Positions 5,818-39,670 of a DNA stretch of 64,000 nucleotides are shown in pieces. A program made the position numbers and the translations under genes. Under the pieces are notes generated by a model. That model ran no database searches and was not told the DNA's origin. It saw nothing but the letters and a program-made list of their open reading frames with translations. The stretch is from Actinomycetota bacterium (lineage in GTDB: Bacteria > Actinomycetota > Actinomycetes > Mycobacteriales > Mycobacteriaceae), in the NCBI GenBank assembly GCA_018268465.1, contig JAFDWN010000039.1, forward strand, positions 56,079 through 120,078, in the 5' to 3' direction. Each line of letters starts with the position of its first letter. The first letter of the stretch is position 1.

Positions 5818-6009
5818 TTACGAGTGCGTGCCCCACCAGGCGTAGAGCTGGTCCAGCCGAGGATCGTTGGGGCCACCGGATTGCACGTCGGCGATGAGCC
5901 GTTGCGCGTCGTTGGTCCACACCACACGCGGCCGGCCATTGCTCAGCCCGCAAAGCACGGTTCCGCGGGTGACGGCGGGGGTGTCGTTGCGTCGCCACGG
6001 GCCGGGAGT
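5818..6009 (-). pseudogene. Severed 3' end of receptor Ser/Thr kinase gene
   Basis: Reading leftwards from 6009 there is an open frame with PGPWRRND, TVLCGLSNGRPRVVWTNDAQ and a terminal LDQLYAWWGTHS ending in TAA at 5818-5820. This is the end of the extracellular sensor domain of the mycobacterial receptor kinase family to which the gene at 26756-28174 belongs. That kinase stops matching its family right after CPGNIQSP, and this fragment starts with the next family residues, (S/T)PGPW. An in-frame TGA at 6010-6012 and a stop at 6166-6168 close the frame upstream, so it is not translated alone. It is interpreted as the part of the same gene that ended up on the other side of the 20.8-kb insertion. 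Confidence 0.8.
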
Positions 6010-6034
6010 TCACTCACCCATTCGACAGTTGTCC
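6003..6034. other. Cargo-side terminus and core of element 2
   Basis: Kinase-derived sequence ends with CGGGAG (6003-6008), which differs at one base from CGGGTG at the other junction (26806-26811). The element then starts TTCACT and carries the short dyad GACA-GT-TGTC at about 6023-6032. The opposite end starts TTCTCT and carries GACA-GGCG-TGTC at a similar distance, so the ends look like imperfect inverted copies. A 6-bp, non-identical core is what is known for Tn554. Confidence 0.65.
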
Positions 6035-6258
6035 ATCCACCGATCCCTGATAGGAGACTGCGAGGTCATCGCGTGCTGTGCCAAATCCAGATCCGGCTGT
6101 AAAGATCCGTCGATCGATTTGCAAACAGATGATTGAGAATGATCACCGACCTGCCCGTGCCGAGGTTACGGCACCGTGGTGCCCGCACAAGTGTCAGTTC
6201 AGCTAACTATTCAGAGACTGGTCGCGCTAACCATCGTTGGGCGCCTTCTGCCGCGGCG

Positions 6259-6840
6259 TTAGTTGGCTGAGGCGGCACGCCACATCATCGAGGGGCGCAG
6301 CAGCCGAATCGGTGGGTCAACGAGCCAGGCCGCCTTGAGGAATCGCTCGAATGCGGCGGTGTCACATCGGCAGCAGTCAGTAATCGGTCCATGTACCCGC
6401 TGAGCAACCTCGTCGATGGCGGTGCCGTGTCCTAGTCCCGGGCAGCTAGGGGTCACCGCCTGCAGCCAGCTGCCAAGCCTGGCCGATTGGCTCCGGAGTT
6501 AGCTAGCTTAGCTAACACACTGTCGCGGAAGATCCACTGCGCTCCAGGACAGGGAGTTTCTCAGCGGCCAAGCTTTCCAGCGCGGCCACGCCGTCATACC
6601 TGCACATAGATTGGGTTGAAGCTGCACACCGCGTCGCCGACGACAAGCAAGCCCTCCGTCAGCAGTCGCGCTTTGTCGGTGCGACGCCAACGGCTGGACG
6701 GGAAACGATGCTGCGCAGCCTCTCCAGGAGGTTCGGCTGCCGGGGTATCCATCGACGGCACCCCTGAAGTTCTGGTACCGCCGTGGGTGACATTGAGTCC
6801 TACGAGTTCTGGCGGGAGTTCCTCGCGTCGTTGAAGCACG
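6259..6840 (-). pseudogene. Degenerate FAD-dependent monooxygenase, C-terminal part
   Basis: Three frames each hold a recognisable piece of a mycobacterial flavin monooxygenase read leftwards. At about 6740-6600: FPSSRWRRTDKARL and LLVVGDAVCSFNPIY, the second FAD-contact motif GDA. At about 6600-6510, in another frame: GMTAWPRWKAWPLRNSLS. At 6456-6259: FLKAAWLVDPPIRLLRPSM, the usual C-terminus. At least two frameshifts separate them, so no functional protein is expected. An N-terminal fragment of the same family, on the same strand, lies at 16560-16760, beyond the nar operon. Confidence 0.7.
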
Positions 6841-6925
6841 GGAACTGTCTGGGGTGTATGTGGTCATCGCGACGCCCATAGCGGTTTGAAAGCGGCTCTG
6901 GCACAACAGTTCACCAGCTCATTCG

Positions 6926-7060
6926 GGCAAGGGTAGGCGCCGGGTGCACTTCATGCGCAAACTGCGCACCGCGGTCTCAGCTAAACACGCCCCGGCGGTG
7001 ACGGCGGCGGTCCAGACCATTTTCGCCCACACCGACCCCGAGGAGGTCGCCGCCCAGTGA
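6926..7060 (+). pseudogene. IS256-family transposase fragment
   Basis: Forty-odd codons read GRRRVHFMRKL ... AAVQTIFAHTDPEEVAAQ, the conserved stretch following the second catalytic Asp in IS256-family transposases (RVHFMRN ... IFAQPDAE). The frame ends in TGA where the family has Trp, and after it GRVTKT still resembles the family. Both ends of the IS are gone. It is a scar of an older insertion next to the broken sensor gene. Confidence 0.6.
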
Positions 7061-7273
7061 GGCCGCGTCACCAAAACCGTGGGTTGATCAGACACCGTGG
7101 GTTGAGTTGATGGGTGCAGTGGCTGGCTGGTGACGACGCTGCCGACACGCGGGACCAGCGGCGTAGGATCGCATCTACCGTGTGCCAAAGAGTTGAGTCG
7201 CGAAAGGTGTTGGGGATGCCCGGCGAACGGGTCGGTGTTTTCTCGGCTGATCCAGGGCTGGCTGGTGGGCCGG

Positions 7274-8050
7274 ATGCATGAACAGCTCGATGAGCTGCTG
7301 GCGTCGCGTGACCAGATGGAGCAGTTGCTGGCCCTCAACATCGAAATCGGCGCCGATCTTGATCTGGATGCCACGCTGGTCCGTATCGTCACCGCAGCCA
7401 GGCAGTTGACCGGCGCCCAGTATGGCGCGCTCGGGGTGCGTGACGCGGACGGCCGATTGATGTCGTTCGTGCACGCCGGTATGGACGCCGACACGGTGGC
7501 GCGGTTGGGTGATCTGCCGGCCGGTAAGGGTCTGTTGGGAGTGCTGTTGAATCAGACCGACATCGTGCGGCTGGGTGATTTGACCGCCCACCCCGCAGCG
7601 GTGGGGTTTCCCGAGCATCATCCTGCGATGCGCGCATTTCTGGGGGTGCCGATCATCATCCGCGAGGTGGTGTTCGGCAGTCTGTACCTCGGCGATGATC
7701 GGCCCGGCCAAGTGTTCAACGAGTCCCATGAGAACGCCGTGCGGGCGTTGGCCTCGGTGGCGGCGGTGGCCATCGACAACGCCCAACTGTTCGATCAGGT
7801 GTCCACCTCCGCGCGGTGGACCGCGGCCAGCCGCGAGATCATCACCGCGGTCCTCGCGGGCGGCGACTCCGGTAAGGCCGCGCTGTCGCTGATCGCCGAC
7901 CGCGTCTGCGCGCTGACCGACGCTGAGCAGGCCATCGTGCTGCTGTCTGCCGACCCTGAGCTGCCGGCCGATCACCTCGACACCCTGACTGTCGCGGCCG
8001 CGGTGGGGGTCCACGCATTCCGGGGGTCTGCTGACCTCATTCTTTTTTAG
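7274..8050 (+). pseudogene. Truncated DevS/DosT-like GAF sensor
   Basis: N-terminal half of a DevS/DosT-type sensor. A coiled lead-in (LDELLASRDQMEQLLALN) is followed by a complete GAF domain (about residues 15-160: LDLDATLVRIVTAA, AQYGALGV, HPAAVGFPEHHPAMRAFLGVP, FGSLYLGD, ALASVAAVAIDNAQLF) and the beginning of a second GAF domain. The family continues with GAF-2, HisKA_3 and HATPase domains, all missing; after VAAAVG the frame runs through unrelated residues to a stop. The histidines in FPEHHP fall in the segment that supplies the haem ligand in DevS (family knowledge). The start is uncertain: ATG 7274 is used, GTG 7130 is in frame. Without a kinase domain it can at most be a free GAF protein. 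Confidence 0.65.
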
Positions 8051-8075
8051 GGTTTTCCTTGGCTCCATACCGGGC

Positions 8076-8099
8076 ACCCCTCCGTGTGCGGGGAGGGGT
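8076..8099. terminator. Inverted repeat, terminator-like hairpin
   Basis: ACCCCTCC (8076-8083) and GGAGGGGT (8092-8099) form a perfect 8-bp GC-rich stem with an 8-base loop, 26 bp after the stop of the broken sensor gene. No T-run follows, as is common for mycobacterial terminators. It would insulate the narK upstream region. Confidence 0.4.
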
Positions 8100-8371
8100 C
8101 TGCATCCGTGATGGCCGACGTTTCCATCGAGTATCGGTGGGCGAGGTCATCTCGGGGGTGTGCTCACCAGGCGAATCGTCCAGGTAAGGCAATGTGAGCG
8201 ATGAGCGGAGACCGGCGATGGCGAAGGGCGCTCAGAGGGACACGACGCCACCGGCGTCTGGAACGTGTCGATGAGATGCGAGCCTGTCAGTTCAACTGCC
8301 CACGCGTGTACTGCTGGGCCACAACGTTTTTGGTCGAAGTGCTCATATCTTGATCTCCCAGTGGTTGTCTG
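8100..8371. promoter_or_regulatory. narK upstream region with a divergent 19-codon mini-ORF
   Basis: No full gene is seen. On the minus strand a GGAGATC ribosome-site-like sequence precedes an ATG at 8346 and a 19-residue peptide (MSTSTKNVVAQQYTRGQLN) ending at 8287; it could be a leader or the remnant of a lost gene. The promoter of narK-narGHJI should lie here. I looked for a DosR-type palindrome (GGGAC...GTCCC) and did not find a convincing one. Confidence 0.3.
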
Positions 8372-9604
8372 GTGGATGTGAACACGGCGAGCACGCCGCA
8401 CTCTGGCGCCAGCAGAAATGTGAACCTTGCGCTGGCCACGTGGGTCTCGGCGATCAACTTCTGGGCGTGGAACATGATCGGTCCGCTGTCCACCACCTAT
8501 GCCGGCGACCTGTCGTTGAGCAGTACCGAGGCCTCCATGCTGGTCGCGACGCCGATTTTGGTCGGGTCCTTAGGCCGGATCGTCATCGGGTCGCTTACCG
8601 ACCGGTTCGGTGGGCGGGCGATGTTCATCGCCGTGTCCGCTGCATCGATCGTGCCGGTGCTGGCGGTTGGGGCGGCAGGAACGGCTGGGTCCTATCCGCT
8701 GTTGCTAGTGTGCGGTTTCTTCCTGGGCATCGCCGGAACGATCTTCGCGGTCGGTATCCCGTTCGCGAATAGTTGGTTCGAGGCGTCGCGGCGCGGCTTT
8801 GCGACTGGCGTGTTCGGCATGGGAATGGTGGGCACTGCGTTGTCTGCGTTCTTCACGCCGCGGTTCGTGCGCTGGTTCGGCCTCTTTACTACTCACGTCA
8901 TCATCGCGGTTGCGCTCGCGCTCACTGCGGTGGCGTGCGTCTTCGTGATGCGAAACTCTCCCAGTTTCAGCCCGAACACCGGGCCAGTGGTGCCGAAGCT
9001 GATTGCTGCCGCAAAACTGCCGGTCACCTGGGAGATGGCGTTCCTGTACGCGGTGGTCTTCGGCGGATTCGTGGCGTTCGCCAACTACCTGCCCACCTAC
9101 ATCAAGACGATCTACGGGTTCTCCGCGATCGATGCGGGCGCGCGCACCGCCGGTTTCGCACTGGCCGCCGTATTGGCCCGGCCTGTCGGCGGCGCGCTGG
9201 CCGACCGGATCGCACCCAAGTACGTCGTGTTGGCGTCGTTCGCGGGTACGGCGGTGATGGCGTTCGTCGCCGTGTTCCAGCCACCACCGGACGTGTGGTC
9301 GGCGGCGACATTCATCACGCTGGCGATCTTCCTGGGCATTGGCACCGGCGGTGTGTTCGCGTGGGTGGCCCGCCGAGCACCGGCCCAGTCCGTGGGGTCG
9401 ATCACCGGAATCGTCGCCGCGGCGGGCGGGCTGGGCGGCTACTTCCCGCCGCTGGTGATGGGCGCGACGTACGACCCCGCGGGCAACAACTACACGGTCG
9501 GGCTGCTTCTTCTGGTGGCCACTGCGCTGGTCGCTCTCGGCTACACCGCGTTTCGGCTGCACGCACACGAACCGGCAACTCAGACGAAGGGGGCGACGAT
9601 GTGA
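8372..9604 (+). CDS. narK: NarK nitrate/nitrite transporter (MFS)
   Basis: A 410-residue, 12-helix major-facilitator protein of the NarK/NRT family, taking up nitrate and/or exporting nitrite for the nitrate reductase encoded just downstream. Family features include AINFWAWNMIGPLS in helix 1, GSLTDRFGGR between helices 2 and 3, the nitrate-signature-like GFFLGIAGTIFAVGIPFANSWF in the fifth helix and GTGGVFAWVARRAP in the C-terminal half. The GTG at 8372 is used; GTG 8378 is equally possible. The stop overlaps the narG GTG (ATGTGA, 9599-9604), so narK is the first gene of a narK-narG-narH-narJ-narI operon. Confidence 0.9.
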   Translation: MDVNTASTPHSGASRNVNLALATWVSAINFWAWNMIGPLSTTYAGDLSLSSTEASMLVATPILVGSLGRIVIGSLTDRFGGRAMFIAVSAASIVPVLAVGAAGTAGSYPLLLVCGFFLGIAGTIFAVGIPFANSWFEASRRGFATGVFGMGMVGTALSAFFTPRFVRWFGLFTTHVIIAVALALTAVACVFVMRNSPSFSPNTGPVVPKLIAAAKLPVTWEMAFLYAVVFGGFVAFANYLPTYIKTIYGFSAIDAGARTAGFALAAVLARPVGGALADRIAPKYVVLASFAGTAVMAFVAVFQPPPDVWSAATFITLAIFLGIGTGGVFAWVARRAPAQSVGSITGIVAAAGGLGGYFPPLVMGATYDPAGNNYTVGLLLLVATALVALGYTAFRLHAHEPATQTKGATM

Positions 9605-12600
9605 CGGCGTCACCGCGCACCGGCGGGCCGATCGAGGAACTGCTCGAACGTAGCGGCCGGTTTTTCACCCCCGGCGAGTTCTCGGAAGACTTGCGTACCG
9701 TCACCCGGCGTGGCGGTCGCCAAGGCGACGTGTTCTACCGGGACCGGTGGAGTCACGACAAGGTGGTGCGCTCCACCCATGGGGTCAATTGCACGGGGTC
9801 GTGTTCGTGGAAGGTCTACGTCAAGGATGGCATCATCACCTGGGAGACCCAGGAGACCGACTATCCCTCGGTCGGCCCGGACCGGCCCGAGTACGAGCCC
9901 CGCGGCTGCCCGCGCGGTGCGGCGTTCTCGTGGTACACCTATTCGCCCACGAGGGTGCGATATCCCTATGCGCGCGGCGTGCTGGTGGAGATGTATCGCG
10001 AAGCCAAGGCCCGCCTGGGCGACCCGGTGCTGGCGTGGGCCGACATCCAGGCCGACGCCGGGCGGCGCCGCCGGTACCAGCAGGCCCGTGGCAAGGGCGG
10101 ACTGGTGCGGGTGACGTGGGCCGAGGCGACGGAGATGATCGCCGCCGCGCATGTGCACACCATCAAGGAGTACGGGCCGGACCGGATCGCGGGCTTCTCG
10201 CCCATTCCCGCCATGTCGATGGTCAGCCACGCCGCGGGGTCCCGGTTCGTCGAACTGATCGGCGGAGCGATGACGTCGTTCTACGACTGGTACGCCGACC
10301 TGCCAGTCGCCTCGCCGCAGGTGTTCGGCGATCAGACCGACGTGCCGGAGTCCGGCGATTGGTGGGACGCGTCGTATCTGATGATGTGGGGCTCCAACGT
10401 TCCTGTGACCCGGACGCCGGACGCGCACTGGATGGCTGAGGTGCGCTATCGGGGCACCAAGGTGGTCACCGTTAGCCCCGACTATGCCGACAACACCAAG
10501 TTCGCCGACGAGTGGATGCCGTGCGCGGCGGGCACCGACGGCGCGTTGGCGATGGCGATGGGCCACGTGATCCTCTCGGAGTGCTTTGTCCACCAGCGTG
10601 TCCCGTTCTTCGTCGACTATGTGCGCCGCTACACCGACTTACCGTTCCTGGTCAAGCTGGAGGAGCGTGACGGCGCCCTCGTGGCCGGCAAGAACCTCAC
10701 GGCAGCCGATCTGGGACAGGACGTGGAGAACGCGGCGTTCAAGCCGGTGCTGCTCAACGGAGCCGCCGACGAGATCGCCGTGCCGCACGGGTCGCTGGGA
10801 TTCCGCTACGGCGACGACGGCATCGGCAAGTGGAACCTCGACCTGGGCGACCTGGCGCCGGCGCTGACGGTCGCGCCGCAGCACGGAGAACACGCCGAGA
10901 CCGCGCTGATCCAGCTGCCGCATTTCGACACCGTCGACGGGCATGGCGAGACTCTCGCGCGAGGGGTGCCGGTACGCCGGGTGGGCGAGCACCTGGTGTG
11001 CACCGTGTTCGACCTGATGCTGGCCCAATACGGTGTGTCCCGGCCCGGATTGCCCGGCGACTGGCCCACCGGCTACGACGATCCCGACCAGCCCTACACC
11101 CCCGCATGGCAAGAGCCGATCACCGGAGTGTCTGCGGCGCAGGCGATCCGGGTCGCCAAGGAGTTCGCCCGCAACGCCGAGGAGTCCGGTGGCCGGTCGA
11201 TGATCATCATGGGTGCCGGTATCTGCCAGTGGTTCCACGGCGACGCCACCTACCGCGCCGTGCTGGCGCTGCTGCTGCTGACCGGGTCGATGGGCCGAAA
11301 CGGCGGCGGCTGGGCGCATTACGTCGGCCAGGAGAAATGCCGACCGGTCACCGGCTGGGCGACGATGGCGATGGCCACCGACTGGAGCAGGCCACCGAGG
11401 CAGATGGCGGGCACGTCGTACTGGTATGCCCATACCGATCAGTGGCGCTACGACGGCTACCGCGCCGATGCGCTGGCCAGCCCGCTGGGCCGGGGCCGGT
11501 TCCGCGACAAGCACACCATGGACGTGCTCGCCTCGGCGGTGGCGATGGGCTGGAGCCCCTTCTTCCCGCAGTTCGACCGGTCCAGCCTCGCTGTCGCCGA
11601 CGAGGCACGCGCCGCCGGCAAAGACATCCCGGCCTATGTGGCTGAACAACTTGGCTCCGGCGGCTTGAAGCTGGCCGTCACCGACCCCGACAATCCGGCG
11701 AACTGGCCGCGCGTTCTCAGCGTGTGGCGGGCGAATCTGCTCGGCTCGTCGAGCAAGGGCAACGAATACTTCCTGCGCCACCTGCTGGGCACCACCTCGA
11801 ACCTGCAAGCCCAGCCCACCTCGGAGGCGTTGCGGCCCAACGACGTCACGTGGACCGACCATATTCCGGAGGGCAAGCTCGACCTGCTGATGTCGATCGA
11901 TTTCCGAATGACCTCGACAACGCTGCTCTCGGATGTGGTGCTACCCGCGGCGACCTGGTACGAGAAGGCCGACCTATCCAGTACCGACATGCATCCCTAC
12001 GTGCATGCGTTCAGCCCCGCCATTGACCCACCGTGGGAAACCCGCTCAGACTATGACGCATTCGGCGCGATCGCCCGCTCGTTCAGCAACCTGGCTGCCA
12101 AACACCTGGGCACCCGCACCGATGTGGTCCTCGGCACCTTGCAGCACGACACCCCCGGCGCCATGGCTTATCCCGGTGGCACCCAGCATGATTGGCGCGT
12201 GACCGGCGAGGTACCGGTTCGGGGAAAGACCATGGGCCCAGTGGCGGTCGTGGAACGCGACTACGCAGCGATCGCCGACAAGTGGGCCACGTTGGGACCG
12301 CTCGTCGACACACTCGGCGTCACCACCAAGGGCATCACCACCCACCCGACCAACGAAGTCGCCGAGCTGGGCGCCAAGTTCGGGGTCATGAATTCCGGTG
12401 CGGCGGAAGGGCGCCCGGCGATCACCACCGCGGAGCGGATGGCCGATGTCATCCTCGCGCTGTCAGGAACCTCCAACGGCCGCCTCGCGGTCGAGGGATT
12501 CCGCGAGCTGGAGAAGCGCACGGGACGACGATTGGTGCACCTGGCCGAGGGCAGCGAGGAGCGCCGCATCACCTATGCCGACACCCAGGCCCGCCCCGTC

Positions 12601-13299
12601 CCGGTCATCACCAGCCCGGAGTGGTCCGGCAGCGAGACCGGCGGCCGCCGCTACGCACCGTTCACCGTGAACATCGAGGAGCTCAAGCCGTTTCACACAC
12701 TGACCGGTCGGATGCACTTCTACGTCGACCACGACTGGCTGGAGGAGCTCGGCGAGCAGCTGCCCACCTACCGGCCACCGCTCGACATGTCCCGGCTGTT
12801 CGGTGAGCCGGCGTTGGGGGATGGCCGGCCCTCCGACGGGGTTGGCCTGACGGTGCGCTACCTGACACCGCATTCGAAGTGGTCCATCCACTCCGAGTAC
12901 CAGGACAACCTGTTCATGCTCTCGCTGTCGCGCGGCGGGCCGACAATGTGGATGAGCCCGGGTGACGCTGCGAAGATCTCGGTGCGCGACAACGACTGGG
13001 TCGAGGCGGTCAACCGCAACGGGGTGGTGGTGTGCCGCGCGATCGTCTCGCACCGCATGCCCGACGGGGTGGTGTTCGTCTATCACGCGCAGGAACGCAC
13101 CATCGACGTGCCGCTGACCGAGACCACCGGTACCCGCGGCGGTATCCACAATTCGCTGACCCGACTGCTAATCAAGCCCAGCCACCTCGCGGGTGGATAC
13201 GCCCAGCACGCGTTCGCGTTCAACTATCTGGGCCCCACCGGGAACCAGCGCGACGAGGTGACGGTGGTCCGTCGCCGGTCGCAGGAGGTGACGTACTGA
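9601..13299 (+). CDS. narG: Respiratory nitrate reductase alpha subunit
   Basis: A 1232-residue Mo-bis-MGD catalytic subunit that reduces nitrate to nitrite at the cytoplasmic face of the membrane with quinol electrons supplied through NarH and NarI. The FS0 cluster ligands are visible as His60, Cys64 and Cys68 (HGVNCTGSC) and Cys103 (RGCPRG). The Mo-ligand Asp is Asp229 in SFYDWYADLP. There is no twin-arginine signal, as expected for NarG. The length equals that known for M. tuberculosis NarG. The GTG start at 9601 overlaps the end of narK, and the stop (13297-13299) shares one base with the narH ATG. No internal damage is seen, so the enzyme looks functional. Confidence 0.97.
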   Translation: MTASPRTGGPIEELLERSGRFFTPGEFSEDLRTVTRRGGRQGDVFYRDRWSHDKVVRSTHGVNCTGSCSWKVYVKDGIITWETQETDYPSVGPDRPEYEPRGCPRGAAFSWYTYSPTRVRYPYARGVLVEMYREAKARLGDPVLAWADIQADAGRRRRYQQARGKGGLVRVTWAEATEMIAAAHVHTIKEYGPDRIAGFSPIPAMSMVSHAAGSRFVELIGGAMTSFYDWYADLPVASPQVFGDQTDVPESGDWWDASYLMMWGSNVPVTRTPDAHWMAEVRYRGTKVVTVSPDYADNTKFADEWMPCAAGTDGALAMAMGHVILSECFVHQRVPFFVDYVRRYTDLPFLVKLEERDGALVAGKNLTAADLGQDVENAAFKPVLLNGAADEIAVPHGSLGFRYGDDGIGKWNLDLGDLAPALTVAPQHGEHAETALIQLPHFDTVDGHGETLARGVPVRRVGEHLVCTVFDLMLAQYGVSRPGLPGDWPTGYDDPDQPYTPAWQEPITGVSAAQAIRVAKEFARNAEESGGRSMIIMGAGICQWFHGDATYRAVLALLLLTGSMGRNGGGWAHYVGQEKCRPVTGWATMAMATDWSRPPRQMAGTSYWYAHTDQWRYDGYRADALASPLGRGRFRDKHTMDVLASAVAMGWSPFFPQFDRSSLAVADEARAAGKDIPAYVAEQLGSGGLKLAVTDPDNPANWPRVLSVWRANLLGSSSKGNEYFLRHLLGTTSNLQAQPTSEALRPNDVTWTDHIPEGKLDLLMSIDFRMTSTTLLSDVVLPAATWYEKADLSSTDMHPYVHAFSPAIDPPWETRSDYDAFGAIARSFSNLAAKHLGTRTDVVLGTLQHDTPGAMAYPGGTQHDWRVTGEVPVRGKTMGPVAVVERDYAAIADKWATLGPLVDTLGVTTKGITTHPTNEVAELGAKFGVMNSGAAEGRPAITTAERMADVILALSGTSNGRLAVEGFRELEKRTGRRLVHLAEGSEERRITYADTQARPVPVITSPEWSGSETGGRRYAPFTVNIEELKPFHTLTGRMHFYVDHDWLEELGEQLPTYRPPLDMSRLFGEPALGDGRPSDGVGLTVRYLTPHSKWSIHSEYQDNLFMLSLSRGGPTMWMSPGDAAKISVRDNDWVEAVNRNGVVVCRAIVSHRMPDGVVFVYHAQERTIDVPLTETTGTRGGIHNSLTRLLIKPSHLAGGYAQHAFAFNYLGPTGNQRDEVTVVRRRSQEVTY

Positions 13300-15601: not shown

Positions 15602-15602
15602 C

Positions 15603-16760: not shown

Positions 16761-16848
16761 ACCGCCACATCGCGACATTGTCGACGACCCCTGAAGCGTT
16801 CTCGATACCAACCGCCGACTGGGGATGCATGTGCGGGGAGCAATGAGA

Positions 16849-18849: not shown

Positions 18850-18868
18850 ACAGGAGAGACATCCCGAG

Positions 18869-19210
18869 ATGGAATCAATTTCACTGATCGACATGGCCCA
18901 TGAGAAGCTGACCGAGGCGCGCACGGCGCACAGCGGCCGGGCTGCGCACACCATTCACGGTGGTCACGATCACGAATTGCGGCAGACGGTCATGGCGCTG
19001 GCGGCCGGGCGGGAGCTGGCAGAGCACGACAGCCCGGGTGAGGCGACACTTCAGGTGCTACACGGCCACGTCCGCCTGTACACGAAATCTGATGCGTGGG
19101 AGGGGACGACGGGTGATCACGTGACGATCCCGCCCGAGCGGCACGCGTTGACGGCCATTGAGGACTCGGTGATTCTGCTGACGGTCCTCGCGCAGCTTCC
19201 GCGCGCGTGA
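18869..19210 (+). CDS. Small cupin-domain protein
   Basis: A 113-residue single-cupin protein. The beta-barrel core contains GRELAEHDSPGEATLQVLHGHVRLY and GDHVTIPPERHALTAIEDSVILLTV, matching the two cupin motifs (the first has only part of the usual metal ligands; His in the second is present). The ATG at 18869 is preceded by AGGAGA. Such small cupins may bind metal or small molecules; the substrate is unknown. It is the last gene of the rightward ferredoxin operon. Confidence 0.75.
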   Translation: MESISLIDMAHEKLTEARTAHSGRAAHTIHGGHDHELRQTVMALAAGRELAEHDSPGEATLQVLHGHVRLYTKSDAWEGTTGDHVTIPPERHALTAIEDSVILLTVLAQLPRA

Positions 19211-19256
19211 CGACGCTGCGCGACACGTTCGTGGGGCCGGCCGGTGGTGCAATCAA

Positions 19257-19736
19257 TCACCCGGCGATCATGTGTCGGCCTGGGTGCGCGTCATGCCATG
19301 CGTCGATCGATGCGTCCCACTCGTCGCCGTCCAGCGCGGTCAGCGAGGCGGGGAAGAGCCCGTCCTCCTCCTTGCTGATGTGTTCATACAGATCGGACAC
19401 CGCCTCGCGGATGGCCTGCTGGCCGTCGGTTGAGGAGATGTCGACCGTGGCGAGCAATGCGGCCAACTCGCGGTGCTCGCGAACGAGTGGAGTGATGTGC
19501 TCGGCGTACATCTCCTCGCGCGCCATCACCCGAAACAGCCCGGTTTCCTCGCCGAGCCAGTGCGCGGCCAGTTCGGTCGCCATCTCAGCGAGCAGGTGCC
19601 CTGCCCGGGCCAGGTCCCCCCGATCGATGGCCCGCACCGCCTCGCCGCCGAAGTTGATGGCACGTTCGTGTTCGGCGATGTAGTCACGCAGTAGCGGCAT
19701 TTCTCGACACCCGCAGTAGTGGCACATCACTTCCAA
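19257..19736 (-). CDS. Hemerythrin-domain protein
   Basis: A 159-residue four-helix protein with the His/Glu pattern of a hemerythrin di-iron site: HERAIN, HWLGEETGLFRVM, HITPLVREHREL and HISKEEDGLFPASL. Hemerythrin-like proteins bind O2 or NO, or sense redox state. The N-terminal MCHYCGCREMP is a small cysteine cluster often seen before actinobacterial hemerythrin domains. It converges with the cupin gene and completes the set of O2/NO-binding proteins around the nar operon. Confidence 0.88.
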   Translation of the reverse strand: MEVMCHYCGCREMPLLRDYIAEHERAINFGGEAVRAIDRGDLARAGHLLAEMATELAAHWLGEETGLFRVMAREEMYAEHITPLVREHRELAALLATVDISSTDGQQAIREAVSDLYEHISKEEDGLFPASLTALDGDEWDASIDAWHDAHPGRHMIAG

Positions 19737-20882
19737 ACGCTACGCGTCGGTCCGCCGGGGTGTCCGGGACTCACCGGAGTCGTGCAGGACGACATACCGG
19801 CCATCGCGTCGTCCAACAGCGAACGGACGCCCATTGGTGGAGGCCGTCCTGTGAATTTGAGCGCCGCACCGTCGAATCGCCGTCGCCGACGCGACACCTG
19901 GTCGTTCTGGGCTGAGCCCTTATGCTCTTGACTTTGGCCTCGGTTGTCTCGAAGTCATCGGCGACCTTGGCCCGCCGTGGCTCGCCGTCGCCGCGACGGG
20001 GGTTGGGCGTCGTTCATGCAGCGATTCCGTCGCACCGTCTCAGCGGTCGCAGGCGACCGCCGGCGAGCATCACGATAGTGCCGCTGGGATTGCGGAGGTC
20101 GGTGAGCCTGTAGTCGTTCTCATAGGGCGCTACGCCGCGAAGCGGACGGCAGCCGTGGGCTCCTTGCGGCAAGGGAAAAGAGGCGGAAACCGATGCTGGG
20201 TTGCGATTCGCGGCCGTGCTCCCCAGAGCGCCCCCCAACTCGCACAAGCGGGGATTCACCGTCGTCGTCCAAGTTGAGAATCCCGTACCCGTCAGCTCAG
20301 CGTGACCATCGCGAACCGGGATGTAGGCATCGTTCCCGGCTGCCGACCCGGCGGTTTACGTCGCCGCTCATGGCGGACTTGGTCAGAGCCAGCACTCGGG
20401 CGAGGGCGAGTTGTCCGTTGGGTCGTGGTGACCCGGCGATGACGATGCCCGCGAGGGGTAGGGAGTGAGGAAGCGTTGCAGCGCGGCGGTGGTCGGGTGG
20501 AGGGTGAACCCGTGGAAGTGCGGGAAGTTCGCGAGGGAACGCGGCCGGTGCCGAGGACGTCGACTTCGAGGTGCACGAGGAGATCCATATCGACATAGCG
20601 TGGCTGGGTGACGGGTTTCGCGCACTTTCCAGCGACACAATATGGGTCTGAGTGACGCGCCGCTCGTAAGGCAGGGAAGTTGGCGCCGACACCTTCAGGA
20701 TCTCATGTGCTCGGGGGGTCCTCTCAATGGCGCTGAGCGCGCAGGCCGGGTGTGGAGAGATTCCGCGGGCGCGTTCGGGGCGACCGGCTGATATGTAGGG
20801 GAATTGGTCAAGAGGGCAAGGTGAAACGGCGGCCGCAGTCCAGTGTCGCCTGAACGTCTTGTGCCAGGGGGCAATCAAACAG
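19737..20882. other. 1.1-kb region without an intact gene
   Basis: No intact gene is seen between hemerythrin and the tnpC-like gene. On the minus strand at about 20590-20300, three frames in succession read like one protein: MDLLVHLEVDVLGTG, then ANFPHFHGFTLHPTTAALQ, then LAGIVIAGSPRPNGQLALAR. This suggests a gene broken by frameshifts, which I cannot identify. The remaining sequence (19740-20280) shows nothing I can name. Confidence 0.3.
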
Positions 20883-21290
20883 TCACCGCCCGGGGTGTTT
20901 GCGTGGCATCGAAACAACGACGTTGACTGCGGAGTTCTCGTGCGTGAGTTCGGCGATCACCGCCGAGAGCGTCCTGATCTTGCTTCGCAGTTGAGCATTC
21001 TCGGTAGTCAGTTCTTGGTTGTGATCGCGGGCCTGTGCAAGTTGGCGTTGCAGAGCCTCGACATTCGGGGTGACGGGTCCGCACCCGACCGTCGCCTTGA
21101 ACTCGTTGAGCAGATCGCTGTGATGTTCATAGAGTCGCTGCCGTGATATTCCCGATTCGTCAGCCAAGGCCACCACAGTGCGCGCGCCGCTGCTCCGCTC
21201 GGCTCGGTTGTCTCGGAGGCGGCTCATTGCGGCCCGAACCTGTTGGCGTTCCTCATCATTGTGTGCCGCGCCATCGCCGATGAGGGTCAT
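20883..21290 (-). CDS. TnpC-like (DUF6262-type) protein of element 2
   Basis: A 135-residue protein laid out like the one at 720-1244: an N-terminal HTH-like segment (VVALADESGISRQRLYEHHSDLL) and a C-terminal coiled coil (VEALQRQLAQARDHNQELTTENAQL). It starts in an ATGA overlap with the preceding recombinase gene (21287-21290). It is the last gene of the four-gene recombination operon, at the border to the cargo. Its presumed role is as a transposition accessory factor. Confidence 0.75.
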   Translation of the reverse strand: MTLIGDGAAHNDEERQQVRAAMSRLRDNRAERSSGARTVVALADESGISRQRLYEHHSDLLNEFKATVGCGPVTPNVEALQRQLAQARDHNQELTTENAQLRSKIRTLSAVIAELTHENSAVNVVVSMPRKHPGR

Positions 21291-23428
21291 CCGCTTTCCT
21301 CGTCCTGCCGTGGGATTGTCAGCGGTCGGCTGGATTCGTGTCCTGCAAGCGCCTTTCGGTGCTCGATCAGGCGAGTCTGAATTCGTTGCCGCAGCGGTTC
21401 GGGGAGCCCGAGGGTCACCAGGTCACGTTCGAGGGCTGCGACATGCTGGCCAAGGTTGGCTGCGTCGCGGTCGGTACGGGCGGCGTTGACGCAGCCCAGA
21501 CGGCACCGATTCCACAAGGGTTCAGCGGAGCTGTCGGCATGTTCCAGGCAGGCCGCGGTCGCGCGCCGGAACACGCAGGTTACGACCGCGCCGTGGTGGA
21601 TCTGCAAGTCGGGGTTCGACAATGCGGTGTTGATCTGACTCTTGGTGGTCACTGTCAAGCCCGCGAATGTGCTTGCCCGCGCAACGCGGGCCCGGTACTC
21701 ATCGGCAGCCGGGCCGGAGACGTGCTCGCCGCGCTCGAGTCGATGGTGATCATCGTGGATGATCTCTGCGCGGTGGAGGAACTGTTCGAAGGTGATCTCA
21801 TCATGGAATCCTGAATCAGCTCCGCCGGCATAGCCGTGGATCATCTGTGAGTGCAGGTGGCCGTATTGCGTTGCGCCGGCCACCGTTCCGCCGGGCCGCC
21901 GGACGATGTGCCAAGCCAGTGTGCGTCGCAGGCGCGGCACCTGGATTGCGCCGAGCGGGTCGGTGCCGATCAGCGGATGGCTGAGCGCTGGGCCGATCTC
22001 GCGGTTGAACCATTCGATGAAGCTGGTGATGTCGGTGTTGACGGAGCCGGGTGTTCGGGTCCGGGTAGCGCCGAAGCGAAATTGGTCCTCAGAGAACAGC
22101 TTGAAGCCCGGAAAGAGTAGATCGCTCACCGTGATCTGCTCAAGAACGCAGACGGCATGGGCGGTTTCGTCGGTCACGACCCACGGGATCGTGGCCGGCG
22201 ACCGGTCCGTGCGCGGGCCTTCGGCCTTCAACTGCTGGCCGGACATCAGTGTCAACGCCAGTCTCGGGTCCCGGCTGATGCAGCCGCGGCGGAGGTTGAG
22301 TGCCTCGCCGGTCCGAACACCCGACAGGTAGGCGATCACGACGAAGCAGGCCGTCGTAACGTGGCGCAGCAGTTGGACGAGTTCACCCGCACCGACAGGG
22401 TCTTCACGCCAGCAGTGGGTGCCGATGACGCCGAATGTGTTGATGCGCAGCATGTCGACATCGATCGGCAATTCATGCTTGGCCAGCAGGACCGGAGTCT
22501 CTTTCATGCGTTTCAGTTCGGTGTGGTTGAGCCATCCCCCCACGGCCAATCCCATCAGGTCGACACTGGTGGTATCGCCGGTGCGGATACCTGGAAGTGA
22601 GGCGTCGTTGCGGCCCAGTGCCGCAAGCAGGCATTCGAGTTGGGCCTTGGTGGCGTCGAATACCGATACCATGCGAGTGGGAGCCCGACGAATGTCCGGC
22701 GCGATCTGATGGGCCAGATGCCGCATTGCGAGGAGGTTGCGGGCTGCGGGAAGGAGATCGGCGGCGACCGTGTCGGTGACCATCAATGCCGCCGAGAGCA
22801 GCGGCTCCATGACGTCGGGGTGAATGCGGGGGGTGGTGTTCGGTTTGCCCCAGGATGACTCGTAGTGGGCGAGGCCTCGGGCGCTCGCACCGCCCCACAA
22901 CGGGCCCGCGGGGAGCCGGCACTGCGCGGGCAGGGCATCCCGGTACAGCTGCAGACGCTTGATCGCCTGTAACGCCGCGCGTTTGGATCCGGCACTGACA
23001 CCGCTGGCCTCGGTGACGTGGCGCAGGTAGTCGTCGAGGTGTTCGGCGCTGACCTGGTCAAACGATGTGACACCTCGCTCCACCAACCACGACGTGAACC
23101 TCCGCAACGGCACCAGCTCACCCAAGATCGTCTTGATGTGCGGATAGAGCGATCGAGCACTGTCAAGCCGGGGTGCATCGTCAACAACGTTGAGAAGGGC
23201 GAACAAGTAGAGCTTGCAAGCGTGGCGAAATGGCATCGGAAATCCCTCCCAGTGCACGGCCTGTCCAGCGCTGTGTCGGTCCTCGATCGCTGCGGACAGA
23301 TCCCACACCGGGTCACCAAATCGGCAGCAGATCCCGTCGATGTGAAGCGTGCGGTTGATCACGACCTCTGTTGCGGGACCGACGTGAACACCTGCCACGA
23401 CGTCGAAAGCTTCAGCCGTTTCCGTCAT
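21287..23428 (-). CDS. Tyrosine recombinase, third of three (713 aa)
   Basis: A large recombinase. The catalytic part has SGVRTGEALNLRRG (first Arg), RRTLAWHIVRRPGG (His-x-x-Arg type box) and QYGHLHSQMIHGYAG (His and the probable Tyr nucleophile). A C-terminal Cys-rich segment (CVFRRATAAC, CRLGC) may bind zinc, as in TnpB proteins. The start at 23428 was chosen because it forms an ATGA overlap with the previous gene; the open frame extends upstream over that gene. It plays the TnpB-like part in the operon. Confidence 0.8.
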   Translation of the reverse strand: MTETAEAFDVVAGVHVGPATEVVINRTLHIDGICCRFGDPVWDLSAAIEDRHSAGQAVHWEGFPMPFRHACKLYLFALLNVVDDAPRLDSARSLYPHIKTILGELVPLRRFTSWLVERGVTSFDQVSAEHLDDYLRHVTEASGVSAGSKRAALQAIKRLQLYRDALPAQCRLPAGPLWGGASARGLAHYESSWGKPNTTPRIHPDVMEPLLSAALMVTDTVAADLLPAARNLLAMRHLAHQIAPDIRRAPTRMVSVFDATKAQLECLLAALGRNDASLPGIRTGDTTSVDLMGLAVGGWLNHTELKRMKETPVLLAKHELPIDVDMLRINTFGVIGTHCWREDPVGAGELVQLLRHVTTACFVVIAYLSGVRTGEALNLRRGCISRDPRLALTLMSGQQLKAEGPRTDRSPATIPWVVTDETAHAVCVLEQITVSDLLFPGFKLFSEDQFRFGATRTRTPGSVNTDITSFIEWFNREIGPALSHPLIGTDPLGAIQVPRLRRTLAWHIVRRPGGTVAGATQYGHLHSQMIHGYAGGADSGFHDEITFEQFLHRAEIIHDDHHRLERGEHVSGPAADEYRARVARASTFAGLTVTTKSQINTALSNPDLQIHHGAVVTCVFRRATAACLEHADSSAEPLWNRCRLGCVNAARTDRDAANLGQHVAALERDLVTLGLPEPLRQRIQTRLIEHRKALAGHESSRPLTIPRQDEESG

Positions 23429-25209
23429 GATGCTTCGAGGTTTCCCGTCAGCAGAAGGTTGACCATCCGGTGATCGCTGTCGGTAATCGCGCCTCGCGCG
23501 GCGTCCAGCTGGGCCTGCTCGTACTCGGCGAAGATGTCGTCCAGTTGCGCGAGAGGACCCGCGTGCTCGGCGATCCACTGCCCGATCGGCATCTCTTGGC
23601 GCAGGTCACGAAGCCGGTCGGCCACGACCAATTGAACGGGTAGGTGGCGCGGAAAGGCGCGGGCATTGCTGCAGTCAAGGCATGCCATGAACGACTGGCG
23701 GCACCGTTGACCGTCGATCGGCGAGTGCTCAAAATCGGCGCAATCGCCCAGCACAGCGTCCTGACCGGACCCGATGTCGTCAGTTTCCGGCTGCACCGTC
23801 ATCGATCGTCGGGCCAGTGCTCGTGCCACCTGCTCATCGAGAGCTTCGGCCACGATCTGGAATCCCTCGTTCCTGACAGGGTCCATGCGACTCAAATAGC
23901 GAGCCAACGTGACTGGGCTGTGGGAGGTGGGTTTTCGGACCTGCTCCAGGTAGGTCTTGCGCAGCCGATCCATGCTGATCCCGAGGAGCAAGCCATCATG
24001 GTCGGGGTCACCGGTCAGCCACGGCGCCATCCAGCGCCGTCGCGCATCCACTCCGGACGCTGTGCTGCTGATCCCGTACCCGAAGAGTTTCTGTTCGACA
24101 TGGTCTGGCTGGGCGCTGTAGTAGAGAAAAGCGCGCTGGGACCCGGTCAGCGCGCGGGCCGGTTCGGTCAGTTCCAGCAGCAACGTGAACACCCCGTACG
24201 CGGTCGTCAGCGATGTGTTGGCCACTGCTGCGCGCCGATTCTCCCCGCCAAGCGGCAGCAGTTCGGGGCGCAGCGCGGTCACCGGCAACGTCATGACCGA
24301 CCGTTTCCCACGACGGGGCTTGTCGGCGTTGACGAACACGATGCCGGGTTCATCGGGTCTGCTGGCGTGTCGGTGTGGGGCCGGCAGCGAGTCCAGCGTC
24401 GACAGGTTCAGGCCAGTCAGTCCGGCGAGGAGAACACCAAATGCCCATGCCTCGCCCGGGCTGAGATGCAGGAATGACTGAAGATGGTATCCACCGGCTG
24501 CGGCGGCTACCCGCCGCGTCACGTAAGCCCTTGCGCCCGAAGCAGTACGAGGGAAATCTCCCTCACGGGCGCAGTGATCGAGCACTTCGGCCAGACTACG
24601 ACCGGGGTCTGCGCGGGGGAGGTGATCGAACCGTCCCGCACGATAGTGGTCGACCATCTGCCAATGAGTCTGCAATCGGGCGCGTGCCCGTCGAACCATT
24701 CCCCGCGCGACGACTGTGATGCGGCGCATCTCCTCAGTGGAATAGGGCTGGCGCGCCGTGTTCGTCTTCGGGTGACGCACGCGCGTGTACGCCTGGCGTG
24801 CCTCGTCGGAAACGACGAGACTACAACGCAACAGCGTCTTCAGGCTATGCAACGGGCCAGGACCACTGGGTACCCGACACGACAGGGCCAGGAGCCGGGC
24901 ATCCGCGACGGACAACTCAGCCAATCCCTGCATTCCTGGCCGGTTTTCGGCGAGCCAGCAGCAGGCATGCCGGGCAGACTGCCACAGCGCGCCAGCACCC
25001 CTCAACCGCTTGGATACGCCCAGCACACCGGTGGCGTCCTCGAACGCGATCGAGAAATCGCGGCGGATTCCGTCAGTACCCGGCAGTGAACCGAAGTCGA
25101 AGTCCTTCGACTGCGTGCCATCCTCGCTAACGAACGTGACGATCAGCCCGCGTCGCCGCAATACCGGTCGCCAGGTCGGACCCGGCTGCGCCGCACGGTG
25201 ACCCGTCAC
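23425..25209 (-). CDS. Recombinase-like protein, second of three (594 aa)
   Basis: A 594-residue integrase-like protein in the middle of the recombinase operon (GTGA overlap upstream, ATGA overlap downstream). It has a late C-terminal Cys motif (CRQSFMACLDC). The position of the first catalytic Arg reads GLTGLNLSTLDSL, so the Arg appears to be Asn; a DRLRKTYLEQVRK box and a later ARYLSRM segment remain. It may be a catalytically weak or structural partner of the two neighbours. Recombinase trios (RIT elements) and Tn554-type pairs are the known relatives. Confidence 0.65.
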   Translation of the reverse strand: MTGHRAAQPGPTWRPVLRRRGLIVTFVSEDGTQSKDFDFGSLPGTDGIRRDFSIAFEDATGVLGVSKRLRGAGALWQSARHACCWLAENRPGMQGLAELSVADARLLALSCRVPSGPGPLHSLKTLLRCSLVVSDEARQAYTRVRHPKTNTARQPYSTEEMRRITVVARGMVRRARARLQTHWQMVDHYRAGRFDHLPRADPGRSLAEVLDHCAREGDFPRTASGARAYVTRRVAAAAGGYHLQSFLHLSPGEAWAFGVLLAGLTGLNLSTLDSLPAPHRHASRPDEPGIVFVNADKPRRGKRSVMTLPVTALRPELLPLGGENRRAAVANTSLTTAYGVFTLLLELTEPARALTGSQRAFLYYSAQPDHVEQKLFGYGISSTASGVDARRRWMAPWLTGDPDHDGLLLGISMDRLRKTYLEQVRKPTSHSPVTLARYLSRMDPVRNEGFQIVAEALDEQVARALARRSMTVQPETDDIGSGQDAVLGDCADFEHSPIDGQRCRQSFMACLDCSNARAFPRHLPVQLVVADRLRDLRQEMPIGQWIAEHAGPLAQLDDIFAEYEQAQLDAARGAITDSDHRMVNLLLTGNLEAS

Positions 25210-26717
25210 ATTGGCACTGTCAGTACACGAGGCTCACCGACGCCGACCGTTGCTACGAGACGCTCAAGGGATTGCCGATCGTCGGCATCCATCAGCGCGA
25301 TGAGCTCCTCCACCTGCAACGCCTGAAACGGCTCGAGATAGACACCGCGTGTCACCTCGGCACTGCGATGTCCAAGAAGTGTCGCCAGCAGAAACCACAC
25401 ATCGCCAAGCTGATTACGGAAGTCGCGCTGCTCCTGCTTGGTCAACATATCGGTACGGCGCCACGCCACGAACGTGGCGATGCAAAACCACCGCAGCGCA
25501 AAGGAATGCCTCAGCATGTGGGGACGGCACCACAACGGCGTACCCCCTGATAGTGCAAGCACTTTGGCGACCCTGGCGTTCGCACGGTCGAATGTCTTGT
25601 ACCAGGAATGTTTGGGGCGCGGTGTCCCGTCGTGATTCAGCCACAGCCACATCGGCTCCAGCCCACCAGGTGCACTGCGGAACAACGTCATTCGTGTCGA
25701 GGGCCCAAGTGCATCCAGCCGAACCGTACGACGCGATCCCGTCGCATCAACGACCTTCAGTTGCCCATCCCGGCGAACATTCTCAACGATGCAACGATCG
25801 GCGATCTGTTCATAGCGACCAGCATGTTGCGCACGCGCTACAGCAGCAGTGCGACTACCTTCCTGCATATAGAAGTAGACCTGTTGGGCGACGCGGCGCC
25901 GCATCCAGAACGTTCGACCGCTACCGCCCTTCGCGCAACGAGATGCGACGCGCGAACGCAGGAGCCCCTCAGAGCCCGGCTCAGGCACCTCGATGGTCAA
26001 CATGCTGGCCCACTCGCCGATTCGTAAACCCGTCCCGAACAACCCCTCCACAAACGCGACGTCGCGATCCTCAGTCGCTCCCCGCCAATCTTGTTGCGGC
26101 ACGCCCTCCATCGTGAAACCGCGCAACCCCAGGTTCCGCCACAATCGAAATGCCTGTGGGGTCAGCCATTTCACATCGGACCTGCGCATCCCCGACGGAG
26201 TGCTCTCCAACGCGACCTGGCCCCCGCCCATCCAAGATGTGGCAATCGCACGAGCTCGGACGGGGTTGTCGATTCCGTGCTGCTCGGCCGCCCACGAGTA
26301 GAAAGTACGGATCGACGCGCGATCGACGCAGAAACTATTTGCACTCACATGCTGGGGGTTCTGCTCAGCCGATAGCCGCCATTCCTTGAACGCCGCCAGT
26401 TCCGATCGCGACGCTTGATCCCATCGGACGCCCATCGCGTGCAGAAAATCCAACCACACCTTCAACGACAAGGCGTAACGACGCAACGTCCCCGTTGCTC
26501 GCCCCCGCACCAGCGGATCTCGCCAGTAGGCGTTCACCAACGCATCCGCCCGGCCCCACGGATCAAGGAAGAACGGAGTGCCGTCACGCGCACCATTTCG
26601 CTTCGCCCAGGCCTCGACATCACCCACCACCCCCGGAGCCACGTCGTCCACCGACACGAACCGTTGGCGGAAATCGTAGAAGTGGAGAGTCCAACCATCA
26701 GTCGAAGCGCCATCCAT
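25206..26717 (-). CDS. Tyrosine recombinase, first of three (503 aa)
   Basis: A complete tyrosine recombinase. The N-terminal core-binding domain is at about residues 55-155 (LVNAYWRDPLVRGRATGTLRRYALSLK). The catalytic domain has GTGLRIGEWASML (Arg), HMLRHSFALRW (His-x-x-Arg) and LLGHRSAEVTRGVYLE (His, then Tyr). The start at 26717 lies 88 bp from the element end at 26805. It is the first gene of a four-gene operon whose members all overlap by 4 bp, implying a fixed stoichiometry. It is expected to act at the 6-bp core sites at 6003 and 26806. Confidence 0.88.
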   Translation of the reverse strand: MDGASTDGWTLHFYDFRQRFVSVDDVAPGVVGDVEAWAKRNGARDGTPFFLDPWGRADALVNAYWRDPLVRGRATGTLRRYALSLKVWLDFLHAMGVRWDQASRSELAAFKEWRLSAEQNPQHVSANSFCVDRASIRTFYSWAAEQHGIDNPVRARAIATSWMGGGQVALESTPSGMRRSDVKWLTPQAFRLWRNLGLRGFTMEGVPQQDWRGATEDRDVAFVEGLFGTGLRIGEWASMLTIEVPEPGSEGLLRSRVASRCAKGGSGRTFWMRRRVAQQVYFYMQEGSRTAAVARAQHAGRYEQIADRCIVENVRRDGQLKVVDATGSRRTVRLDALGPSTRMTLFRSAPGGLEPMWLWLNHDGTPRPKHSWYKTFDRANARVAKVLALSGGTPLWCRPHMLRHSFALRWFCIATFVAWRRTDMLTKQEQRDFRNQLGDVWFLLATLLGHRSAEVTRGVYLEPFQALQVEELIALMDADDRQSLERLVATVGVGEPRVLTVPM

Positions 26718-26755
26718 CCCCGGACCCTCCTACCTCACGACCACTGCCCCCATCA

Positions 26756-28174
26756 TCACCGACGCAATCCCCCAAACTGCTCCGACACGCCTGTCGGGCA
26801 GAGAACGGGTGACTGGATGTTGCCGGGGCAGACCACCACTGTCGTGGATTCGACGAGCTGGTCGAACGTGGTGCGCAGCGCCTCGGGTCCGCCGGCCAGG
26901 GTGTAGGTGGCGCTGCGGGGTCCACCAGCGTCGGTGTTGGGTCCGCAGGTGATCACCGTCGCGCCATCAGGGGACGGTGCTGGGGTGCATGCGTCGGCGG
27001 GATAGCCGGACGGGAGCAGCCGCCGGAGGTCCTCAAGCGCGGCGGGCGGGGCCGCGGTGGTCGTCGCTGGCGCCGCCGTGGGCGCGGTGTCGGGCGGGTC
27101 GGAGCGTCCGATAAGCCACACCGACAGGGCGATGATGAGCACGGCGGCGACTGCGAGTGCCGCGATCAGCTGGCGCCGTTGTGAGACGGCACGGGTGTGG
27201 GGGAGCAGGCTGATGAAATCCGCTGCTGCGCCGTGGGACTCGGCCCTGCCTAGCTCAGTGTGGGGTGGCGGCTCGTCGCGATCGGCGGGCGGTGCCGCTG
27301 GAGCCGAGGGCGGGGGGAGGGTGAGTGCCGCGCTGGCCGCGGCCGCGAAGTCGCCGGCGGTGGGGTAGCGGTCAGCGGGATTCTTGGCCAGCGCCTTGGC
27401 GATCACGCTGTCTAGTTGTGGTGAGGCCCAGCTGAGCCGGTCGGACACTCGGGGCGGGGTGGTGTCCATATGAGCTTTTACTGTGGCGCCGACCCCGGCG
27501 TCTGTCGGGTAGGGGTGGTCTCCAGTCAGCAGCCGAAAGAGCGTGCATGCGAGGGCGTAGACGTCGGCGCGTCCGTCCAAAGCTGATGTCCCGGTGATGA
27601 CTTCGGGTGCGCTGTAGGCGAGGGTGGCGCTCATGGGCCCGTCGCCAGCTCCGCGGCTGTGGGGGGACAGCGCGGCACCGAAGTCGGTGAGCACGACGCG
27701 GTCGAGACCGCCCGGCAGTTTCTGGGCGGCGATCAGGAAGTTCGAGGGTTTGATGTCTTGGTGCACGACCCCGCGGGAGTGCGCGTAGTCCAGGGCTCGG
27801 GCGACCTCGGTGATGATGTGGACTGCGCGCTCGGGCGTCATCTGTCCGTCGCGCAGCGCAGTCTCGGCGTTGGTTCCCTCGACGTACTCCATGGCGATCC
27901 ACAGTTGGCCGGTGTCGGTCTCGCCGCGGCTGAACACGCGCACGATGTTGGGATGTTCGAGCCCGGCGGTGATGTCGGCTTCGTGGAGGAACTGGGCGCG
28001 AACGTGGTCGCCTTTGGCGTGCTCGGGTTGAAGCACTTTGAGCACTTCCCGGCGCGGCAGGGTGGGACTGTGCACCAGGTAGACCGTCGCCATCGCCGTG
28101 ACGGCCAGGACCCGCTCGACGCGGTATCCGGCGATGTGGGTGGGTGGTGTGGGCAGGCCCTCTGGTGCGGTCAT
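26756..28174 (-). pseudogene. Receptor Ser/Thr protein kinase, 3' end displaced by element 2
   Basis: A PknE/PknF-type transmembrane kinase. The kinase domain is at residues about 15-290, with catalytic VVHQDIKPSNF, DFGAAL and APEV; then a proline-rich linker, a membrane helix (about 335-356) and an extracellular sensor domain. The glycine loop is unusual (VLAVTAMATVYLV, no Gly). The sensor domain stops matching its family after CPGNIQSP and ends with 16 residues encoded by the transposon end. The missing 63 codons are found 20.8 kb away at 5818-6009. The intracellular kinase could still be made, but signal sensing is probably lost. Confidence 0.85.
26799..26811. other. Recombinase-side terminus and core of element 2
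   Basis: CAGAGAA (26799-26805) borders CGGGTG (26806-26811). To the right the kinase reads in frame through Cys-Pro-Gly-Asn-Ile-Gln-Ser-Pro; to the left the frame continues for 16 foreign codons. Inside the end there is an imperfect dyad, CTGCCCGACA-GGCG-TGTCGGAGCAG, a possible recombinase binding site. The same CAGAGAA heptamer marks element 1 at 4997. Confidence 0.65.
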
Positions 28175-39593: not shown

Positions 39594-39670
39594 GTTCTTT
39601 CCTTGTGGGGCTTGGCGTTATCGGTCGACGCGCATTGACGGTGTGGGTCGCAGCTGCCCCGCGCGGGGCG

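Follow-up and report, generated by a model that had tools for sequence, protein, structure and literature searches.

A putative tyrosine-recombinase genomic island carrying narK-narGHJI splits a kinase gene in a member of the Mycobacteriaceae

We analysed a stretch of 64,000 nucleotides from contig JAFDWN010000039.1 of a member of the Mycobacteriaceae (the window), in which a segment of 20,797 base pairs (bp), positions 6009-26805 on the minus strand, interrupts a Ser/Thr-kinase gene at a 6-bp core. The comparisons described here lead us to regard this segment, with a probability of about 0.9, as a site-specific genomic island driven by tyrosine recombinases, in outline like the strand-biased circularizing integrative elements (SEs), the GInts and Tn554, with a nitrate-respiration (nar) block as its cargo. 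Genomes and loci are cited by our own G and L numbers.

An insertion in a kinase gene

The minus-strand kinase frame that begins at 28174 reaches the residues IQSP and departs from its family at 26806-26811, confirming the split, the coordinates and the 6-bp core given in a preliminary description of this DNA. We searched 248 genomes of the genus for the 5’ part of the gene and aligned seven loci to the window. In all seven the gene is continuous over the insertion site, positions 26806-26808 joining 6006-6008 without a gap; this continuity was read from the uncut sites of the relatives and not from joining the window's two halves. The nearest uncut locus (L009, in G140) is 99.86% identical over 29675-26806 and 99.90% identical over 6008-5003, and the overlap of the two alignments is exactly the core. 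The remaining loci are L011, L022, L028, L052, L053 and L054. Two are imperfect witnesses of a working gene: L022 (G056) is uninterrupted at the site and has its frame broken at another place in the gene, and the contig of L028 (G081) covers the kinase gene only in part. Three of the seven uncut loci lie on named plasmids, pJCM12603 (M. poriferae), pMSPYR101 (M. gilvum Spyr1) and a plasmid of M. vanbaalenii JOB5, all typed as mobilizable (MOBF).

The uninterrupted kinase that the preliminary description expected in mycobacterial relatives was found at each of these loci, and the gene does not naturally end at IQSP, since the relatives read through. The seven continuous sites rule out chance as the cause of the apparent split. 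Comparison with the intact alleles also supports the earlier claim that no target sequence is duplicated beyond the 6-bp core. Sequence comparison could hardly establish the insertion and its boundaries more firmly.

Nitrate-respiration cargo in two species

The element has its recombinase module at one end, the cargo between and an AT-rich far end. Family matches (TIGR01660, TIGR00684 and TIGR00351) and an alignment of NarG bear out that a complete narK-narGHJI cluster lies inside it. Of the accessory genes named earlier, the ferredoxin (Fer4) and the hemerythrin-domain protein (PF01814) stand, and the globin label is unconfirmed by Pfam or NCBIfam.

The same nar cargo, in the same gene order, recurs in a second element found in another species (G225). 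This element is chromosomal, 25.8 kb in length and located on a 6.2-Mb contig, in a gene with a frame of 208 amino acids (aa) without the kinase part. A copy at another gene in another species strongly supports the earlier proposal that nar moves as one unit, and on these comparisons nar is very likely the cargo of a mobile island. In 500-bp bins, the window and G225 elements are 85.4-91.8% identical in the module and 93.4-99.8% identical in the common cargo, where 23 of the 28 bins reach at least 97%. The step in identity falls at the end of gene D, the last gene of the module, and the last 430 bp are not common to both elements. Because identity is higher in the cargo than in the module, the cargo is of more recent common descent than the modules, one of which was exchanged; cargo and recombinase module have thus been exchanged. 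The G225 counterpart of the GAF-domain open reading frame (ORF) is longer, at 562 aa, and G225 has 978 bp of extra DNA there. Directly behind the nar block of the G225 element, at 21338-21413 (L127/L141), a 76-bp repeat of the gene D end (84%) is a possible trace of cargo stacking.

A 2,061-bp accessory-cargo query, searched in 396 genomes with two candidates scored per genome, was matched at full length in the window's genome and G225 only, among the matches listed. About half of it was matched in G258, G268 and G167 at 90-91% and nearly half in G013 at 86%. A search for narGHJI itself in the 396 genomes, with one candidate per scored genome and 220 genomes unscored, found the cluster in 102 of 176 scored genomes of the genus, the window's included. 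The window's genome (30 of 324 candidates scored) and G225 (40 of 247) have a single match each, so that the island copy is the only narGHJI found in both carrier genomes among the candidates scored. G140, G278, G301 and G096 have one match each at 80-81%, and G167 has a syntenic cluster over 8199-19923 at 84-90%, without a gene A match. In a NarG tree of 38 rows, in which the bootstrap is not fully settled and one row sits on a long branch, the window and G225 form one clade (100/100) that is grouped with G167 and G033 (94/98). From this clade and the syntenic cluster of G167, the cargo is most likely mycobacterial in origin.

Nitrate reduction has long been used to tell mycobacterial species apart. 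If a complete narGHJI is indeed island cargo, this trait could be gained or lost in one step.

Recombinase module, docking site and core polarity

The preliminary description placed three recombinase genes 88 bp inside one end of the element. The position holds; the number does not, as the module consists of four genes and the smallest, of 135 aa, had been missed. Starting at the kinase, the module reads A (503 aa), B (594), C (713), D (135); the four genes lie on the minus strand and are joined by successive 4-bp overlaps. That all of them encode recombinases stands for A and C, which have tyrosine-recombinase motifs or Pfam matches (weak for C), and not for B, which has no match in Pfam or NCBIfam. 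The gene A motifs TGLR[I/L]GEW, HMLRHSF and GHRSAEVTRxVYL are present in all eight aligned copies, and the gene C motifs LSGVRTGEAL and YGHLH[S/T]Q[M/L]I[H/Q]GYAG in all eleven. By eye, the catalytic residues are R, HxxR, H and Y in A and R, R, H and Y in C, where the usual H of HxxR is apparently lost. Gene B has, by eye, a Phe at the place of the catalytic Tyr and no recognisable recombinase motif; a GH...Y motif is seen in its homologue on a plasmid of Agrobacterium. When profiles of B were compared with those of A and C, and A with C, no match emerged, and no relative of B with a solved structure was found. The matches of gene D are all below curated cut-offs and mostly to coiled coils, with DUF6262 (0.0096) among them.

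Related modules occur on plasmids of other bacteria. A Klebsiella plasmid module (L175; 397/581/645/149 aa) matches A at 9e-19, B at 2e-5 (67 residues) and C at 4e-18, and an Agrobacterium plasmid module (417/474/724 aa) matches A at 7e-17, B at 1e-15 and C at 1e-31. Gene D has no match in the Klebsiella module, and no D counterpart is annotated in the Agrobacterium module. Relatives of gene C were found in 219 plasmid records, Streptomyces and Agrobacterium most often, and relatives of gene B in 127.

Gene A, used as query, matched 13 loci in named records and, at E <=1e-40, 54 of 396 genomes of the genus, the window's included. Eighteen regions around the closest copies were fetched, ten of which were extended, together with two nar regions. 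Eighteen left (recombinase-side) ends were read, including that of the window and some named loci. The set excludes G133 and G345 (poor unrelated end matches at <=6 mismatches, none at <=4), G385/L046 (similarity starting within gene A), the fragments L049-L051, G263 and G291, and gene A copies below 60% identity. At 16 of the 18 left ends the host frame terminates in IQ[S/C/T]P, giving the site IQ[S/C/T]P/GPWRR. For 11 copies, ranging from about 10 to 29 kb, both ends could be placed; the host frame resumes with PGPWRR[N/S] in ten of them, G273 being the exception; the right end of G096 was placed by the position of the protein tail and not by end sequence. The target is a conserved coding stretch, CAG TCN CCN GG, for the protein sequence IQSPG.

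Of the 18 upstream host frames, five, including the window's, align to most of the window kinase. In ten, the match is confined to the final 74-165 residues of the kinase, and nine of those frames are just 122-252 aa long. The other three have no kinase match (G273, G124 and RYN_167, whose available frame is 17 aa). Since host frames match the kinase either over most of its length or in its last residues only, the element docks at the DNA of a conserved motif whose domain accompanies a kinase in some genes and apparently stands without one in others; the host genes seem not to be all kinases. A docking site in the coding sequence of a gene family offers several possible sites per genome, and G278 has three copies of 9.95 kb at three sites, of which the one scanned holds MerA, MerB and MerC. 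Two G278 copies (L118 and L119) have exchanged right flanks, as if recombined between copies. Among other cargoes are a NasC-like reductase (805.9 bits, below the model cut-off of 1100) with NirB (above its cut-off) in G287, a P450 in G065 and G176, a P-type ATPase in G179 and a sulfide-dehydrogenase-like flavoprotein in G301. In all 15 aligned copies, similarity to the window's module stops within a span from 14 bp ahead of the gene D stop to about 36 bp past it, G225 with its common cargo being set apart.

The polarity of the cores is readable only where a close intact comparison exists, which the other copies lack. Against the G140 site the window has no mismatch over 250 bp on the left and 120 bp on the right; its right core, CTCCCG, is that of the target, and its left core, CACCCG, differs. 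In G301 the left core is CGCCGG and the right CTCCCG, with 0/120 and 1/250 mismatches on the left and 0/120 on the right. In both of these clean cases the right core equals the target and the left core differs. The G278 insertion in that gene, whose halves are now at two copies, agrees (left CGCCCG with 0/250 mismatches, right CTCCCG) and is weaker, as its right flank fits over 60 bp only (53/120 mismatches). A fourth case, also weaker, agrees as well (G278 against L012, 9 and 6 mismatches of 120), and in G278c both cores are alike. The rule published for SEs, in the excerpted text of PMC10214605, places the target core in attL and the element core in attR, and the polarity looks opposite to it in both clean cases. 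The pattern could reflect unsampled alleles, as CACCCG is also the core of a natural intact site (L054). With so many natural copies, the strand-exchange rule is directly testable.

Taken together, recombinases A and C, partnered by B and D, may join both ends into a circle with one 6-bp core, and this circle would integrate at an intact site in a gene of the domain family. The left core would be brought by the element and the right core would be the target's own. A nar block of mycobacterial origin would then supply the recipient with a respiratory nitrate reductase. The island may be active today and may let its recipient respire nitrate. The earlier suggestion that it would make nitrate respiration transferable applies to a genus in which nar is already common.

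Table 1. Features of the window on and around the nar element (strand in the third column)
Feature	Positions	Strand	Basis or remark
Kinase gene, 3’ part (PGPWRRN...LYAWW)	5818..6002	-	remainder of gene resumes at 6008
Right 6-bp core	6003..6008	-	CTCCCG on kinase strand; identical to intact site of G140
Element	6009..26805	-	recombinase end 26805, far end 6009; continuous sites in relatives, like end sequences in other copies
Far (3’) end	6009..6438	.	GC content 0.59; 6009-6250 at 0.545 against 0.659 in cargo
Cargo common to G225 element	6439..20862	.	starts about 20 bp beyond gene D stop
GAF-domain ORF, 306 aa	7130..8050	+	GAF_2 1.2e-20
narK-type transporter	8372..9604	+	TIGR00886 1.3e-53 (below its cut-off); MFS_1 8.9e-49
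narG, start codon assumed	9613..13299	+	residues 11-1222 of 1228 align to E. coli NarG 1q16
narH, start approximate	13299..14942	+	TIGR01660 1.5e-225
narJ	14939..15601	+	TIGR00684 3.4e-48
narI	15582..16334	+	TIGR00351 1.5e-62
Globin-like, by eye only	16849..17403	-	no Pfam or NCBIfam match
Ferredoxin	17454..17798	+	Fer4 6.2e-11
Helix-turn-helix regulator	17795..18427	+	HTH_20 1e-6
Hemerythrin-domain protein	19257..19736	-	PF01814 6.1e-13
Gene D, 135 aa, coiled-coil-like, Srap/TnpC-like by position	20883..21290	-	matches below cut-off only
Gene C, large recombinase, 713 aa, IntB-like	21287..23428	-	Phage_integrase 0.064 (below cut-off) and motifs
Gene B, 594 aa, Tfp-like by position	23425..25209	-	no family match
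Gene A, tyrosine recombinase, 503 aa, IntA-like	25206..26717	-	Phage_int_SAM_1 3.3e-9 and conserved motifs
Left (recombinase-side) 6-bp core	26806..26811	-	CACCCG on kinase strand
Kinase gene, 5’ part	26812..28174	-	Pkinase 1.1e-37; intact homologues

Elsewhere in the window, positions 720-5003 hold a second, different Tn554-like element (a short recombinase, a long recombinase and a DUF6262 protein), whose end appears to lie within ligD near 5003. The stretch of plasmid backbone between it and the nar element measures only about 1 kb. At about 37500-44000 there are matches to actinobacterial plasmid-borne heavy-metal P-type ATPases and a metal-sensitive regulator.

Alternative explanations and known element classes

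Several observations weigh against an island of this kind. The circle, its excision and its transfer are proposed from sequence comparison, and the recombinase fold of B is unproven, its AlphaFold2 model being poor (mean predicted local distance difference test, pLDDT, of 39). The gene C frame of the G225 element is shortened to 588 aa. The left ends of G273 and G124 lie in other sequence, and in G287, where an end sequence was found, the far flank lacks the motif. G258 and G268, genomes that are 83% and 64% complete, have contigs (L171 and L172) with an uncut kinase and, beside it, a nar-type block that joins the related plasmid at window position 5482; neither contig holds a recombinase. The block is 92% identical over 17240-19890 and, on the G268 contig, 79% over narJ-narI as well. 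The two contigs give equal alignment figures and may be one sequence. By this arrangement, nar has entered the plasmid family by a second route as well. The preliminary description would have been undermined by relatives carrying the nar block without recombinases and with the same split; a nar-type block with no recombinase on the contig exists in these two genomes, and the split does not, the kinase being uncut and the join lying elsewhere.

The arrangement in G258 and G268, together with the step in identity between module and cargo, would also fit two separate, adjacent insertions, in which case nar would not move with the module. We consider this improbable, because module and nar lie between like ends at two different genes in two species and because the window's kinase resumes exactly at the far end. 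An error of assembly or binning might be suspected in a draft genome bin of 72 contigs with 5.86% contamination, which is itself a point against our interpretation; both junctions, however, fit intact alleles base by base and like ends recur in other genomes, leaving an artefact very improbable.

The island could instead be a classical Tn554 or RIT element, as its earlier Tn554/RIT-like label implied. Site specificity, a 6-bp core and recombinase genes at one end agree with that label, and Tn554-related elements are known from Actinobacteria (PMC3414803; this and the other papers below are cited from excerpts). PMC10214605 distinguishes SEs, GInts, RITs and Tn554-related elements, and describes the archetype RIT as three recombinases of 315-410 aa, all with the catalytic Tyr, and 34-bp terminal repeats. 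RIT was rejected, since the proteins here are of 503, 594 and 713 aa with a small gene of 135 aa beside them and B has no recognisable motif. Tn554 proper, with two recombinases and TnpC, was rejected as well, as it has no counterpart of gene B. A classical member of either class is unlikely, and only the general features of the label stand.

The tyrosine-recombinase island that we favour is closer to the SEs, which have the gene order intA-tfp-intB-srap and are reported, in the excerpt of PMC10214605, only from Gammaproteobacteria. Shared are the order of an ordinary recombinase, a motif-less protein, a large recombinase and a small coiled-coil protein, by position and motif only, as well as the 6-bp core, few target sites and cargo. 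SE proteins IntA and IntB have RHRY and Tfp does not; A, C and B compare with this, by eye, as given above. The Klebsiella module has the A-B-C-D order without an SE label. The window's element differs in reversing the attL/attR core rule and in its actinobacterial host, and the likeness is one of description.

GInts begin their cargo at about the ginD stop and have an AT-rich 3’ end (PMC5385486), both of which are found here; they also share imperfect att repeats, variable adaptive cargo and 6-nt staggered cuts. In GInts, however, the motif-less protein is the third, GinC (PMC5385486), whereas the present element has it in second place, with R, R, H and Y in its third protein. The phyla named for GInts in that excerpt do not include Actinobacteria, and here too the comparison is by description. 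Tn554-related transposons were described in Actinobacteria, Mycobacterium included, in 2012 (PMC3414803) and resemble the present elements in a short and an abnormally long recombinase, often a TnpC-like gene, and several copies per genome; gene B, the cargo and the target gene are not described in the excerpt of that paper. A horizontally acquired nitrate-respiration cluster is also known from the nitrate respiration conjugative element of Thermus (PMC5748679), which is conjugative and belongs to another phylum. In the open-licence literature we found no report of a nar-carrying element of such a kind in mycobacteria.

It is a tentative idea, to which we give slightly less than even odds, that these elements form a distinct actinobacterial class: four-gene islands docking at the DNA of a conserved protein motif in kinase and apparently non-kinase genes, with reversed core polarity, acting as a platform that swaps operons (nitrate respiration, nitrate/nitrite reduction, mercury resistance) between modules and spreads between plasmids and chromosomes. 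The odds are lowered because only two polarity cases are clean. Tn554-related actinobacterial transposons are already known, and what is unusual here is the docking site and, possibly, the reversed polarity. By position and motif, the gene order follows the SEs and the three-part plan follows the GInts, within the wider Tn554/SE/GInt group.

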